Of a stretch of DNA of 64,000 nt, positions 12,454 to 52,168 are shown piece by piece. This DNA is from Asticcacaulis taihuensis (GTDB taxonomy: Bacteria > Pseudomonadota > Alphaproteobacteria > Caulobacterales > Caulobacteraceae): the NCBI RefSeq assembly GCF_900100255.1, contig NZ_FMTS01000002.1, positions 211,400 through 275,399 of the forward strand. The letters are read 5' to 3'. Position numbers and translations under genes: made by a program. Within the stretch, counting starts at the first letter, position 1, and every line of letters begins with the position of its first letter. The notes under the pieces are model-generated. The model was not told where the DNA came from. It did no database searches and saw nothing but the letters and a program-made list of their open reading frames with translations.

Positions 12454-12522
12454 GACACCATTTTAATTTATTTTCTCAGTTTGAAGTAGTGATTTCGGTG
12501 ACAGATAACCTCCACAGGTAGT

Positions 12523-12677
12523 TCAGGTCCTCTTTTGGGGCTTCTCCACATACTGCTGCAAAGCACGATTGATGTGTGTCTGTAGCCGTCGCCAACATCC
12601 TTGAACCACCCCACGACATCGGCATCGAGCCGAATGATAGCTGCTGTTTGACCGGCCGGTAGAACATCCTCGCTCAC
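12523..12677 (-). pseudogene. BrnA-like antitoxin remnant, truncated and frameshifted
   Basis: On the minus strand the frame gives QTAAIIRLDADVVGWFKDVGDGY, close to the BrnA C-terminal pattern (LRLDPDVLxWFxxxGxGYQTRIN). Straight after GY the frame breaks. Shifting it restores THINRALQQYVEKPQKRT and a stop at 12523, so one base (probably the C of a Gln codon, Y-Q-T) is missing near 12585. The 5' part of the gene is absent: it runs straight into interspersed repeat copy a at 12681. No BrnT toxin gene is visible beside it. It is a dead toxin-antitoxin relic. Confidence 0.7.
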
Positions 12678-12680
12678 GCT

Positions 12681-12750
12681 TATACCTCCCCGGCTATGCC
12701 GGGGAGGGGGACCATGAGCGCAGCGAAATGGTGGTGGGGTTTCTGGCTTG
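12681..12750 (+). repeat. interspersed two-hairpin repeat, copy a
   Basis: Opens CCTCCCCGGC-TAT-GCCGGGGAGG (10-bp stem), continues GGGACCATGAGC and ends GGTGGTGGGGTTTC. Orientation here called forward. It abuts the BrnA remnant and faces copy b 50 bp away in inverted orientation. Confidence 0.85.
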
Positions 12751-12800
12751 CTTCCTGCAAAAACCCGTGCGGCGCGACCGTCAGGCCGCCACCTTTTTAA

Positions 12801-12870
12801 GTAAGATACCCCACCACCCCGCCCTGCGGGCGCGGTCCCCCTCCCCATCGAAGATGGGGAGGTATAAGAA
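12801..12870 (-). repeat. interspersed two-hairpin repeat, copy b
   Basis: Reverse orientation: GATACCCCACCACC, a small CGCCC-TGC-GGGCG hairpin, CGGTCCCC, then CCTCCCCATC-GAA-GATGGGGAGG. It ends two bases before the stop codon of the DUF559 gene. Confidence 0.85.
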
Positions 12871-12871
12871 G

Positions 12872-13243
12872 TTATTTGCGTTGTGTGGCGCGTTCCAGCG
12901 CCAACAGGCGGATGCCGTCTGCAACGGCTTCCACGTCGCGGTAAACTTCGGCGGCGGATAAGCGGTAAACCTCAAGCCCTTCGCCACGTAAATAGGCGTC
13001 GCGTTGCGCGTCTTTCAGGATTGCCGCGTCCTCGCCATGCGTCGCGCCATCGACTTCAACTGCCAGCCGTGCCTTGAAGCAATAGAAGTCGAGGATATAC
13101 GGCCCAAAGGCATGTTGCCGCTTAAAGACCAGCCCATCATCCAGCCGCCGTTTCAGGCGCTCCCACAGCAGCCATTCCGGACTGGTCATGGCTTTGCGCA
13201 TCTGACGGGCCAAAGCGGTTTTTCGTTTTGGTGTGTCGGTCAT
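12872..13243 (-). CDS. DUF559 (Vsr/restriction-endonuclease-fold) protein
   Basis: A 123-aa protein beginning MTDTPKRKTALARQMRKAM. DUF559 features are clear: TSPEWLLWERLKRR, the core FKRQHAFGPYILDFYCF, the acidic pair in LAVEVDGATH (candidate metal ligands with the Asp of ILDFY), and GLEVYRLSAAEV. The fold is related to very-short-patch-repair and other PD-(D/E)xK-type nucleases; its biological role is not established. The start is ATG 13243; a longer frame would only translate repeat copy c. Repeat copies lie two bases after its stop and eight bases before its start, in direct orientation, so the gene fills the gap between two repeats. Confidence 0.88.
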   Translation of the reverse strand: MTDTPKRKTALARQMRKAMTSPEWLLWERLKRRLDDGLVFKRQHAFGPYILDFYCFKARLAVEVDGATHGEDAAILKDAQRDAYLRGEGLEVYRLSAAEVYRDVEAVADGIRLLALERATQRK

Positions 13244-13250
13244 GATAGAA

Positions 13251-13325
13251 AAGTAAGTACCCCACCACCAACGCGCAAGAGCGCGTCGGTCCGCCTCCCC
13301 AGCAAAGCTGGGGAGGCATAAGTAG
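13251..13325 (-). repeat. interspersed two-hairpin repeat, copy c
   Basis: Same orientation as copy b: GTACCCCACCACC, ACGCGC-AAGA-GCGCGT hairpin, CGGTCCG, then CCTCCCCAGC-AAA-GCTGGGGAGG. It occupies the leader of the DUF559 gene. Confidence 0.85.
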
Positions 13326-13365
13326 CATTTCTCCCCGGCCATGCAATCACCCGCATAATCGCTGC

Positions 13366-14115
13366 ATGGATGAGGCCAGCGAAATCGAAAACGACCAGGC
13401 GGAACTGAAAGCAGCCCGCACGCGGTTGCGCGCCTTCGCGGCGCTGGTGGCCGAGGCCGTCGAATCCATCGACATGCCCGAAACCTTTCTGGAGGGCGAA
13501 CGCGCCGCGCGCGCTGTCATCATGGCCGACCGCCTGGTCACCAACCTGCCGGTCGCGGAAATCCCGGAAGCGGAAGACGCGTCCGAAGCCGCCCCCATTA
13601 TCGCGCCCGCCCGCAAGCGTTTGCGCCTCTATGCCCATCGCCTGCTCGATACCATCGAACGCCTGCCCCTGCCGAAAACCTTCCTCGAAGGTGAGCGCGC
13701 CGGCCGCTGCGTGCTGGCCACGGACCGCATGTTGTCCCAGCTTTACGAAGCCCCACGGCCGGAAGTCACCCGTAGGGAAGTGCCCGGTTTCACCGGTTTG
13801 AAGACCGCCCGGCCGGTCGCCAAATCCGCCGCCGGACGTTTCGATGACGACGAGGACGACGCGGACCGCGAACCGACCGGCGATGACTATAAGGCGGTCC
13901 TGGCCTTCCGCCTCGATCATATCGTGCGCGGCCGCGCTAAACAAAGCGGCTTCTGGAATGATGGCCACCCTTACGATCCCGCCGATCCGGATTATGGCTG
14001 CATCTATCAGAACTTCGCCATCCCCGGCTTCGATCCGCTCGATGGCCTGCCCCCTGCCGACCGCTTCACCCTCTCCCATGCCCGCAAGGCCGGCGATCCC
14101 ATCGCCCCGCCCTGA
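13366..14115 (+). CDS. hypothetical protein with an internal tandem duplication
   Basis: A 249-aa soluble protein, no signal peptide. Two related helical units follow each other: residues about 15-62 (ARTRLRAFAALVAEAVESID, then MPETFLEGERAARAVIMADR) and about 82-128 (ARKRLRLYAHRLLDTIERLP, then LPKTFLEGERAGRCVLATDR). Each ends with the nearly identical FLEGERAxR…DR. An acidic linker (FDDDEDDADREPTGDD) leads to a C-terminal part with YDPADPDYGCIYQNF. I do not recognise the family; it may be a regulator or terminase-like HTH pair, but nothing in the sequence proves this. It starts 24 codons after repeat c. Confidence 0.75.
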   Translation: MDEASEIENDQAELKAARTRLRAFAALVAEAVESIDMPETFLEGERAARAVIMADRLVTNLPVAEIPEAEDASEAAPIIAPARKRLRLYAHRLLDTIERLPLPKTFLEGERAGRCVLATDRMLSQLYEAPRPEVTRREVPGFTGLKTARPVAKSAAGRFDDDEDDADREPTGDDYKAVLAFRLDHIVRGRAKQSGFWNDGHPYDPADPDYGCIYQNFAIPGFDPLDGLPPADRFTLSHARKAGDPIAPP

Positions 14116-32407: not shown

Positions 32408-32437
32408 AAAGCTCGCCTCTCAGGAGACGGGCTTTTT
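32408..32437 (+). terminator. terminator of the first M13 gene
   Basis: AAAGCTCGCCTC / GAGACGGGCTTT with a TCAG loop, one mismatch, followed by T's. It resembles the hairpin at 34005-34034. Confidence 0.85.
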
Positions 32438-32500
32438 TATACCTCCCCAGTTTACTGGGGAGGGGGACCACCCTTCGCTAAAGCTACGGGCGGCAAGCCG
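32438..32500 (+). repeat. interspersed two-hairpin repeat, copy d (divergent second half)
   Basis: TACCTCCCCAGT-TT-ACTGGGGAGG then GGGACCACCC. The first hairpin fits the family; the second half departs from copies a and h. Confidence 0.7.
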
Positions 32501-32581: not shown

Positions 32582-32653
32582 GAAGTAAGATACCCCACCA
32601 CCAACGCGCGAAGGGCGCGTCGGTCCCCCTCCCCACCGAAGGTGGGGAGGTAC
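32582..32653 (-). repeat. interspersed two-hairpin repeat, copy e
   Basis: GTAAGATACCCCACCACC, ACGCGC-GAAGG-GCGCGT hairpin, CGGTCCCC, then CCTCCCCACC-GAA-GGTGGGGAGG. It faces copy d in inverted orientation and ends 12 bp before the stop of the small membrane protein gene. Confidence 0.85.
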
Positions 32654-42009: not shown

Positions 42010-42098
42010 AGTAAGAAGCCCCACCATCAACGCGCAAGAGAGCGTCGGTCCCCGGCCCCGGCCGCCCGCCTCCCCGGCAAGTCGGGGAGGTATAAGAA
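42010..42098 (-). repeat. interspersed two-hairpin repeat, copy f (longer variant)
   Basis: GTAAGAAGCCCCACCATC, ACGCGCAAGAGAGCGT, CGGTCCCC, then an insertion (GGCCCCGGCCGCC) before CCTCCCCGG…CGGGGAGG. The first hairpin has lost one base pair through a deletion. It separates the DsbD gene from the next gene. Confidence 0.8.
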
Positions 42099-52005: not shown

Positions 52006-52084
52006 AAGCAAGCAAGATACCCCACCACCCCGCCGCTGAAGCGGCGCGGTCCCCCTCCCCGGCAAAGCCGGGGAGGTATAAAAG
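52006..52084 (-). repeat. interspersed two-hairpin repeat, copy g
   Basis: GATACCCCACCACC, CGCCGCT-GA-AGCGGCG hairpin, CGGTCCCC, then CCTCCCCGGC-AAA-GCCGGGGAGG. It starts three bases after the ubiG stop. Confidence 0.85.
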
Positions 52085-52099
52085 AATGACTTTATTCTT

Positions 52100-52168
52100 G
52101 TACCTCCCCAACTTGTTGGGGAGGGGGACCATGAGCAAAGCGAAATGGTGGTGGGGTTTCTTGCTTTA
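52100..52168 (+). repeat. interspersed two-hairpin repeat, copy h
   Basis: CCTCCCCAAC-TT-GTTGGGGAGG, GGGACCATGAGC, then GGTGGTGGGGTTTC. Same orientation as copy a, inverted relative to copy g 15 bp away. It ends 17 bp before the prmC start. Confidence 0.85.

Follow-up and report, generated by a model that had tools for sequence, protein, structure and literature searches.

The gene for a small PD-(D/E)XK nuclease of the DUF559 family in Asticcacaulis taihuensis, together with the inverted palindromic repeats at its flanks, probably constitutes an autonomous mobile element of about 0.5–0.7 kb, and the similar repeats scattered through the genome would be gene-less copies of it. A probability of roughly two in three is assigned to this reading. 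The nuclease is a strong candidate for spreading a bacterial repeat family that is very common and whose origin is unexplained. The gene is located in a 64,000-nucleotide stretch of DNA, analysed at its full length and referred to here as the window, and the positions given in Table 1 are counted from its first letter.

Organization of the DUF559 unit

The DUF559 gene of the window is intact, and its product matches Pfam family PF04480 with an E-value of 4.7e-27 (94.5 bits against a gathering cut-off of 20.6). Repeats b and c lie at the flanks of the gene, in agreement with the preliminary description of this locus. The spacing given there is also correct: the end of repeat b is about 3 base pairs from the stop codon, and the start of repeat c is about 8–14 base pairs from the start of the gene. 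The repeats had been described as two direct copies, and this holds for b and c, which have the same (+) orientation; however, a third copy, repeat a, had been missed. Because repeat a has the opposite orientation, the outermost pair of repeats, a and c, is inverted. The order along the direction of the gene is c(-), DUF559 gene, b(-), a(+), in which repeat c is the left-hand and repeat a the right-hand terminal copy. Repeat b is an extra copy that separates the stop codon from repeat a, and a similar extra copy is present in two orthologues (L236 and L237). The unit is adjoined by a conserved gene of 249 amino acids (13366–14115) that has no Pfam match and parts of which recur in the same genome (contig C18).

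Table 1 Features of the DUF559 unit and dispersed gene-less repeats in the window
Feature	Position	Strand	Details	Basis
DUF559 (PF04480) PD-(D/E)XK nuclease gene, 123 aa	12872–13243	-		Pfam, alignment, AlphaFold/PDB fold, dN/dS
Repeat a	12680–12745	-	TATA tag; hairpin 2 (12685–12707); hairpin 1; GGTGGTGGGG third arm (12730–12741)	
Repeat b	12807–12868	+	TACCCCACCACC third arm (12807–12818); hairpin 1; hairpin 2 (12840–12862); TATAAG tag	
Repeat c	13258–13322	+	Third arm (13258–13269); hairpin 1; hairpin 2 (13294–13316); CATAAG tag	
Block of three repeats and DUF559 gene	12669–13343	.	Missing at the corresponding site in the nearest relative, G409 (L070)	
Dispersed gene-less copy	32437–32475	-	Hairpin 2 (32442–32463)	
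Dispersed gene-less copy	32591–32652	+	Hairpin 2 (32628–32650)	
Dispersed gene-less copy, partly degenerate	42030–42096	+	Hairpin 2 (42069–42090)	
Gene-less inverted pair, REPIN-like form	52018–52158	.	+ copy (52018–52082); - copy (52098–52158)	

Structure of the repeats and their gene-less copies

Hairpins of the form CCTCCCC-N-GGGGAGG occur eight times in the window, compared with 0.03 in shuffled sequences, and 230 times in the whole genome, compared with none for a reversed control pattern. About 35 copies of the repeat were read, and they share a common plan. A C-rich third arm, AAGAAACCCCACCACC, is followed by the variable hairpin 1, which is closed by GGTCC. Hairpin 2 consists of CCTCCCC, a variable stem and loop, and GGGGAGG, and it is followed by TATAAG; the tags of the copies read are CCCCACCACC and TATAAG. 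Covariation is evident in the inner stem of hairpin 2, with 18 cells containing double changes against 4.5 in shuffles, and 98.9% of the stem is paired, whereas the pairing is much lower once the stem is slid. Therefore, it is the fold of hairpin 2 that is conserved and not its letters. Gene-less copies of the repeat are found either solo or as inverted pairs.

Palindromes flank DUF559 genes in many phyla

The genome of A. taihuensis contains four DUF559 genes, all of which have palindromes on both sides, and the palindromes are of differing sorts. DUF559 genes are present in 112 of 150 genomes of the order, with 1–11 genes in each. Of 30 loci drawn from different genomes of the order, nearly all have the gene flanked by C-rich palindromes, and DUF559 genes are likewise flanked at 30 loci from across the phylum. 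When the 20-kb stretches surrounding the DUF559 genes were scanned in nine genomes, the density of palindromes with a pyrimidine arm was 5.1 per kb within 150 base pairs of the gene versus about 0.1 per kb at distances of 1–9 kb. Among 41 DUF559 genes from nine genomes other than that of the window, 36 have a palindrome within 150 base pairs on at least one side, compared with 36 of 472 neighbouring open reading frames (Fisher p 8e-30). Palindromes on both sides are found at 27 of the 41 DUF559 genes, at none of the 472 other open reading frames (Fisher p 5e-35), and at none of 6277 random spans; the rule used for palindromes was fixed (a stem of at least 8 with a pyrimidine arm) and misses diverged sorts. 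Chance is excluded as the cause of the association.

The linkage of DUF559 genes to the repeat was to be counted against chance in related genomes according to the preliminary description, and it holds both there and across many phyla. Of 74 usable named DUF559 loci, 64 have a palindrome within 200 base pairs, compared with 4.3% of control spans, and these loci include records titled Chloroflexi, Planctomycetota, Nitrospirae, Kapabacteria and Gastranaerophilales. Palindrome-flanked DUF559 genes were also recognized by inspection in Cyanobacteriota and Deinococcota, and a DUF559 gene of Neisseria gonorrhoeae, the species from which the solved DUF559 structure NGO0050 (3hrl) comes, similarly inspected, has matching C-rich palindromes on its flanks. 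Some DUF559 loci have a single clear flanking copy. Related DUF559 units are found on two Deinococcus plasmids (L279 and L280), where they occupy different junctions of an hpa gene cluster, and the ends of these units reach past the hairpins as longer inverted repeats.

Specificity and geometry of the flanking repeats

The repeats do not form a single family, as had been assumed; instead, every DUF559 gene is accompanied by a sort of its own. The upstream and downstream flanks of one DUF559 gene match each other with a median local score of 31, whereas the median score between the flanks of different DUF559 genes from the same genome is 10.5 (p = 4e-12). Within one genome, the similarity of the nucleases tracks that of their repeats (54 pairs, rho 0.53, Mantel p 0.0005). 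The borders for the specificity test were set from the catalytic motif, and the test covers 32 genes, because the search for the motif missed 13.

The orientation of the flanking copies was compared among 139 loci. Upstream of the gene, the nearest copy is "-" in 54 of 59 orientable cases; downstream, the nearest copy is "+" in 53 of 59; and both orientations occur jointly in 31 of 37. Therefore, inverted copies frame the DUF559 gene, with the third arm facing towards it. The arrangement of two direct copies proposed from the window thus does not represent the usual form. Orthologues from the genus follow this plan cleanly; one example is L258, which reads TCATTCCTCCCC...gene...GGGGAGGAATGA; the window and orthologues L236 and L237, with their additional direct copy at the stop codon, are exceptions. 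The best matches between flanks in the set of 32 genes comprise 15 inverted and 11 direct pairs, a mixture that results from the extra copies being common and the hairpins being self-complementary. The downstream hairpin starts within the 3' end of the open reading frame in 68% of the loci that have one. Therefore, many DUF559 proteins terminate in a translated repeat (PSPQPSP...GEGE), an example of which is L065:1893-1925, and such C-termini of annotated DUF559 proteins are probably outside the folded enzyme.

The palindromes and DUF559 genes are both intergenic and patchy in distribution, as would be expected if they merely shared tolerant intergenic regions or islands. However, palindromes on both sides are absent from all other open reading frames and random spans sampled, and the fixed distance, orientation and matching sorts of the repeats, as well as their association with DUF559 in many phyla, speak against such hitch-hiking. 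This explanation is largely refuted and is considered highly improbable.

Number of repeats and presence of the unit at individual sites

The abundance of the repeats depends on the presence and copy number of DUF559 genes. CTCCC-N-GGGAG hairpins were counted against the reversed control in the 150 genomes of the order, and their median excess is 29 in those with DUF559 and -4.5 in those without. The corresponding values in 243 genomes of the phylum from outside the order are 79 and -1 (p 1e-13). Hairpin excess correlates with DUF559 copy number within genera of the order (r 0.46, permutation p<2e-4) and with DUF559 within families of the phylum (r 0.54, permutation p<0.001), where the control for kinship consists of the within-genus and within-family permutations and not of a full host tree. 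The relationship between the orthologue of the window gene and the number of sort-A copies is weakly positive among 25 genomes of the genus (38 versus 24, p 0.04). Genome G398, which has no DUF559 match, contains two sort-A repeats. However, the closest relative (G409) has 65 sort-A repeats and no close orthologue of the window gene, and 28 of 185 genomes of the phylum without a strong DUF559 match still show an excess of hairpins. Gene loss could account for these cases.

At two sites compared between genomes, the unit is either present or missing as a whole. In the closest relative (locus L070 of G409), homology to the window ends at 12668 and restarts at 13344, and both the repeats and the DUF559 gene are missing. 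The site is occupied by about 485 base pairs of other sequence, which continues the brnA-like gene that is truncated in the window. In genome G408, the whole unit separates the stop codon of a conserved gene from its terminator. The stop codon adjoins the terminator at this site in G411, G407, G396 and G398, with no repeat in between, and a solo repeat is present at the same junction in G399. TAA is found on both sides of the unit at one site only, the G408 junction, and may be a target-site duplication. Five of the nearest orthologues adjoin the same neighbour as the gene in the window, on the groEL side, and others occupy unrelated places, where their ends are of the same sort.

The truncated gene in the window is a remnant of a BrnA antitoxin-like gene (12468–12668, E 4e-5), which is cut off by the repeat block. 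Since the brnA-like sequence runs on undisturbed in L070, the arrival of the block was accompanied by partial loss of a toxin-antitoxin pair, the brnT member of which is inferred.

The chief rival to the mobile-element reading, which is itself unlikely, is that DUF559 is a homing-type nuclease that has invaded a pre-existing family of repeats, in which it would cleave inverted pairs of a single sort and be copied into them by recombination, and that it does not spread the repeats. Apart from a DUF559 protein, the solved structure nearest in fold to the window protein is that of the homing endonuclease I-Bth0305I, and the position of the gene mid-way in inverted pairs, together with the existence of gene-less inverted pairs, is consistent with homing. 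However, a passive target would not need its abundance to follow the presence and copy number of the nuclease, and the sister genomes at the G408 site do not have a repeat pair into which the gene could have homed.

Structure and conservation of the nuclease

The PD-(D/E)XK catalytic residues D52, E63, D65 and H69 are present in the window protein, and these residues, as well as D78 and R81, are invariant in an alignment of 32 relatives. The AlphaFold model of the protein is confident, with a pLDDT of 91.3. In the PDB, its fold is best matched by NGO0050 (3hrl) and by the catalytic domain of I-Bth0305I (3r3p), the latter with a TM-score of 0.77 on the target and E=6e-5 in Foldseek. The structure of Vsr (1vsr) is a weak fold match; the window protein has no match to the Vsr model TIGR00632, and YcjD of E. 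coli scores E=0.05 and 13.9 bits against this model, compared with the cut-off of 97.85. The dN/dS ratio of the gene relative to its orthologues is 0.07–0.08, at a dS that is near saturation, and the DUF559 gene is under purifying selection. Foldseek additionally matched the DUF559 model to mitochondrial ribosomal proteins from apicomplexans and ciliates; these proteins presumably contain domains of the same fold. A role in anti-phage defence was considered and rejected: the search for defence proteins provided a partial match of 52 residues to DpdF and no full-length match.

The DUF559 protein VsrA of Caulobacter crescentus (CCNA_02930) has been shown genetically to cause DNA damage in vivo and is responsible for a DNA-damage response in cells that lack a cytosine methyltransferase, and it has been interpreted as a mismatch-repair enzyme linked to YGCCGGCR methylation (PMC12907096). 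Therefore, members of the DUF559 family can act on the chromosome. This response and the purifying selection on DUF559 genes would fit a host maintenance nuclease with a Vsr-like function in repair or hairpin processing, the adjacent repeats being regulatory, for example as terminators or attenuators. However, the patchy presence of DUF559 genes, their occurrence in up to 11 copies per genome, the gene-specific sorts of repeats, the terminal inverted geometry, and the presence or absence of the unit as a block are marks of a mobile element and make the maintenance function distinctly improbable.

Repeats at the DUF559 gene of Escherichia coli

To our knowledge, ycjD is the sole DUF559 gene of E. 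coli K-12. It is located at positions 1351407–1351760 of the genome and has two repeats of the PIT/TM_ECO class next to it, one about 170 base pairs off its 3' end and one overlapping the end of the reading frame. Holder et al. list the K-12 repeat at 1351204–1351239 as number 9 in their table (PMC4666352). The ycjD locus was rejected as a clean empty site, because strains that do not have ycjD carry an efflux operon (eef) at this position (PMC12817139). The polymorphism between alx and sstT was rejected as an insertion, since it resembles a deletion between CCCTCTCCC direct repeats, by which one strain seemingly lost half of an inverted PIT pair (L225/L232). Among 5395 complete E. coli genomes, about half have an inverted PIT pair between the divergent enterobactin genes fepB and entC (L229), and it is absent from the rest. 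The filled form of this site is 186 base pairs longer than the empty form and has no clear duplication; the difference may reflect either gain or loss.

Proposed mechanism of repeat propagation

We infer that the nuclease causes the movement of the repeats. The enzyme would recognize its own sort of palindrome, probably when this is extruded into a hairpin or is single-stranded during replication, and would nick or cut the DNA at the foot of the palindrome. The released end could then be copied or inserted elsewhere by the replication and repair machinery of the host, and the new position would often be immediately after a stop codon or at a terminator. Copies without the gene would still be recognized by the nuclease, which would enable inverted pairs and solo repeats to accumulate.

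The broader proposition is that a lone DUF559 PD-(D/E)XK nuclease is the sole enzyme of a new and very widespread class of mobile elements, and that PIT/triplex repeats, including those of E. coli K-12, are gene-less copies of such elements; the chances of this being correct are considered even. Short palindromic repeats of the CCCTCTCCC/GGGAGAGGG type are known from hundreds of genomes, and one study of them states that mobility genes were never found in their vicinity (PMC4666352). If the proposition is true, DUF559 gains a role, the origin of the CCCTCTCCC/GGGAGAGGG-type repeats is explained, and a second, unrelated enzyme joins the way of life represented by REP-RAYT. The idea is directly testable in E. 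coli K-12, in which ycjD adjoins such repeats.

Comparison with known systems

The DUF559 units resemble REP/REPIN-RAYT systems (TnpA_REP, "REPtrons") in having an enzyme gene between inverted short palindromes, many extragenic gene-less copies and inverted pairs in a genome, and several sorts of repeats per genome, each of which is tied to its own gene. By contrast, the DUF559 enzyme is a Vsr/homing-like PD-(D/E)XK nuclease and not a Y1 HUH transposase, and the repeats linked to DUF559 are spread over many phyla. Since the repeats are palindromic, extragenic, and often arranged in REPIN-like inverted pairs, they could be regarded as ordinary REPs that are moved in trans by a RAYT (Y1) transposase. 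However, a search of this genome for Y1_Tnp/RAYT (PF01797) provided no match, whereas the E. coli and Caulobacter controls were positive in the same search, and none of the approximately 35 copies read has a GTAG tag at the base of its palindrome. The earlier observation that no RAYT gene is visible therefore extends to the rest of the genome, and mobilization by RAYT in trans is exceedingly improbable. Both observations that were to refute the preliminary interpretation, a general lack of linkage in related genomes and a RAYT gene, were looked for, and the interpretation withstood both checks. Because the search for the defining enzyme was negative, the DUF559 system is not a member of the REP-RAYT group.

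PIT/TM_ECO "intrastrand triplex" repeats have been found in 262 proteobacterial genomes by Holder et al., who never found mobility genes around them and do not mention a link to DUF559 (PMC4666352). Repeats with the sequence CCCTCTCCC have also been reported from Enterobacter sp. 638 (PMC2869309). Repeats linked to DUF559 share with this class the layout of C-tract, C-tract, loop and G-tract, and the copies flanking ycjD in E. coli are such repeats. The PIT layout CCCTCNCCC-N3-6-GGGNGAGGG-N3-GGGNGAGGG is found at ycjD, and similar layouts occur at many DUF559 loci. By contrast, the sort of repeat from the window departs from this layout, as a variable hairpin separates the third arm from the main hairpin. 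The suggestion that the locus represents an undescribed system is supported in part. The repeat class is known, its commonest sort being PIT/TM_ECO (PMC4666352); however, a published report of a link between DUF559 and palindromic repeats was not found in a full-text literature search, the range of which excluded preprints and most subscription journals.

CGTC-tagged REPs, which have a CGTC tag and a CCA tail, are common in alphaproteobacteria and have no dedicated transposase according to the authors who described them (PMC3733652); the sort of repeat from the window is without the CGTC tag by inspection. The EDxHD homing endonuclease I-Bth0305I (3r3p) and the DUF559 protein NGO0050 (3hrl) have the same catalytic fold as the window protein; however, unlike the genes of EDxHD homing endonucleases, the DUF559 gene is free-standing, intergenic, and located between repeats, and not in an intron or intein. 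VsrA from C. crescentus has the DUF559 domain in common with the window protein. Finally, the DUF559 units are similar to insertion sequences and MITEs, with which they share terminal inverted repeats and the existence of gene-less derivatives.
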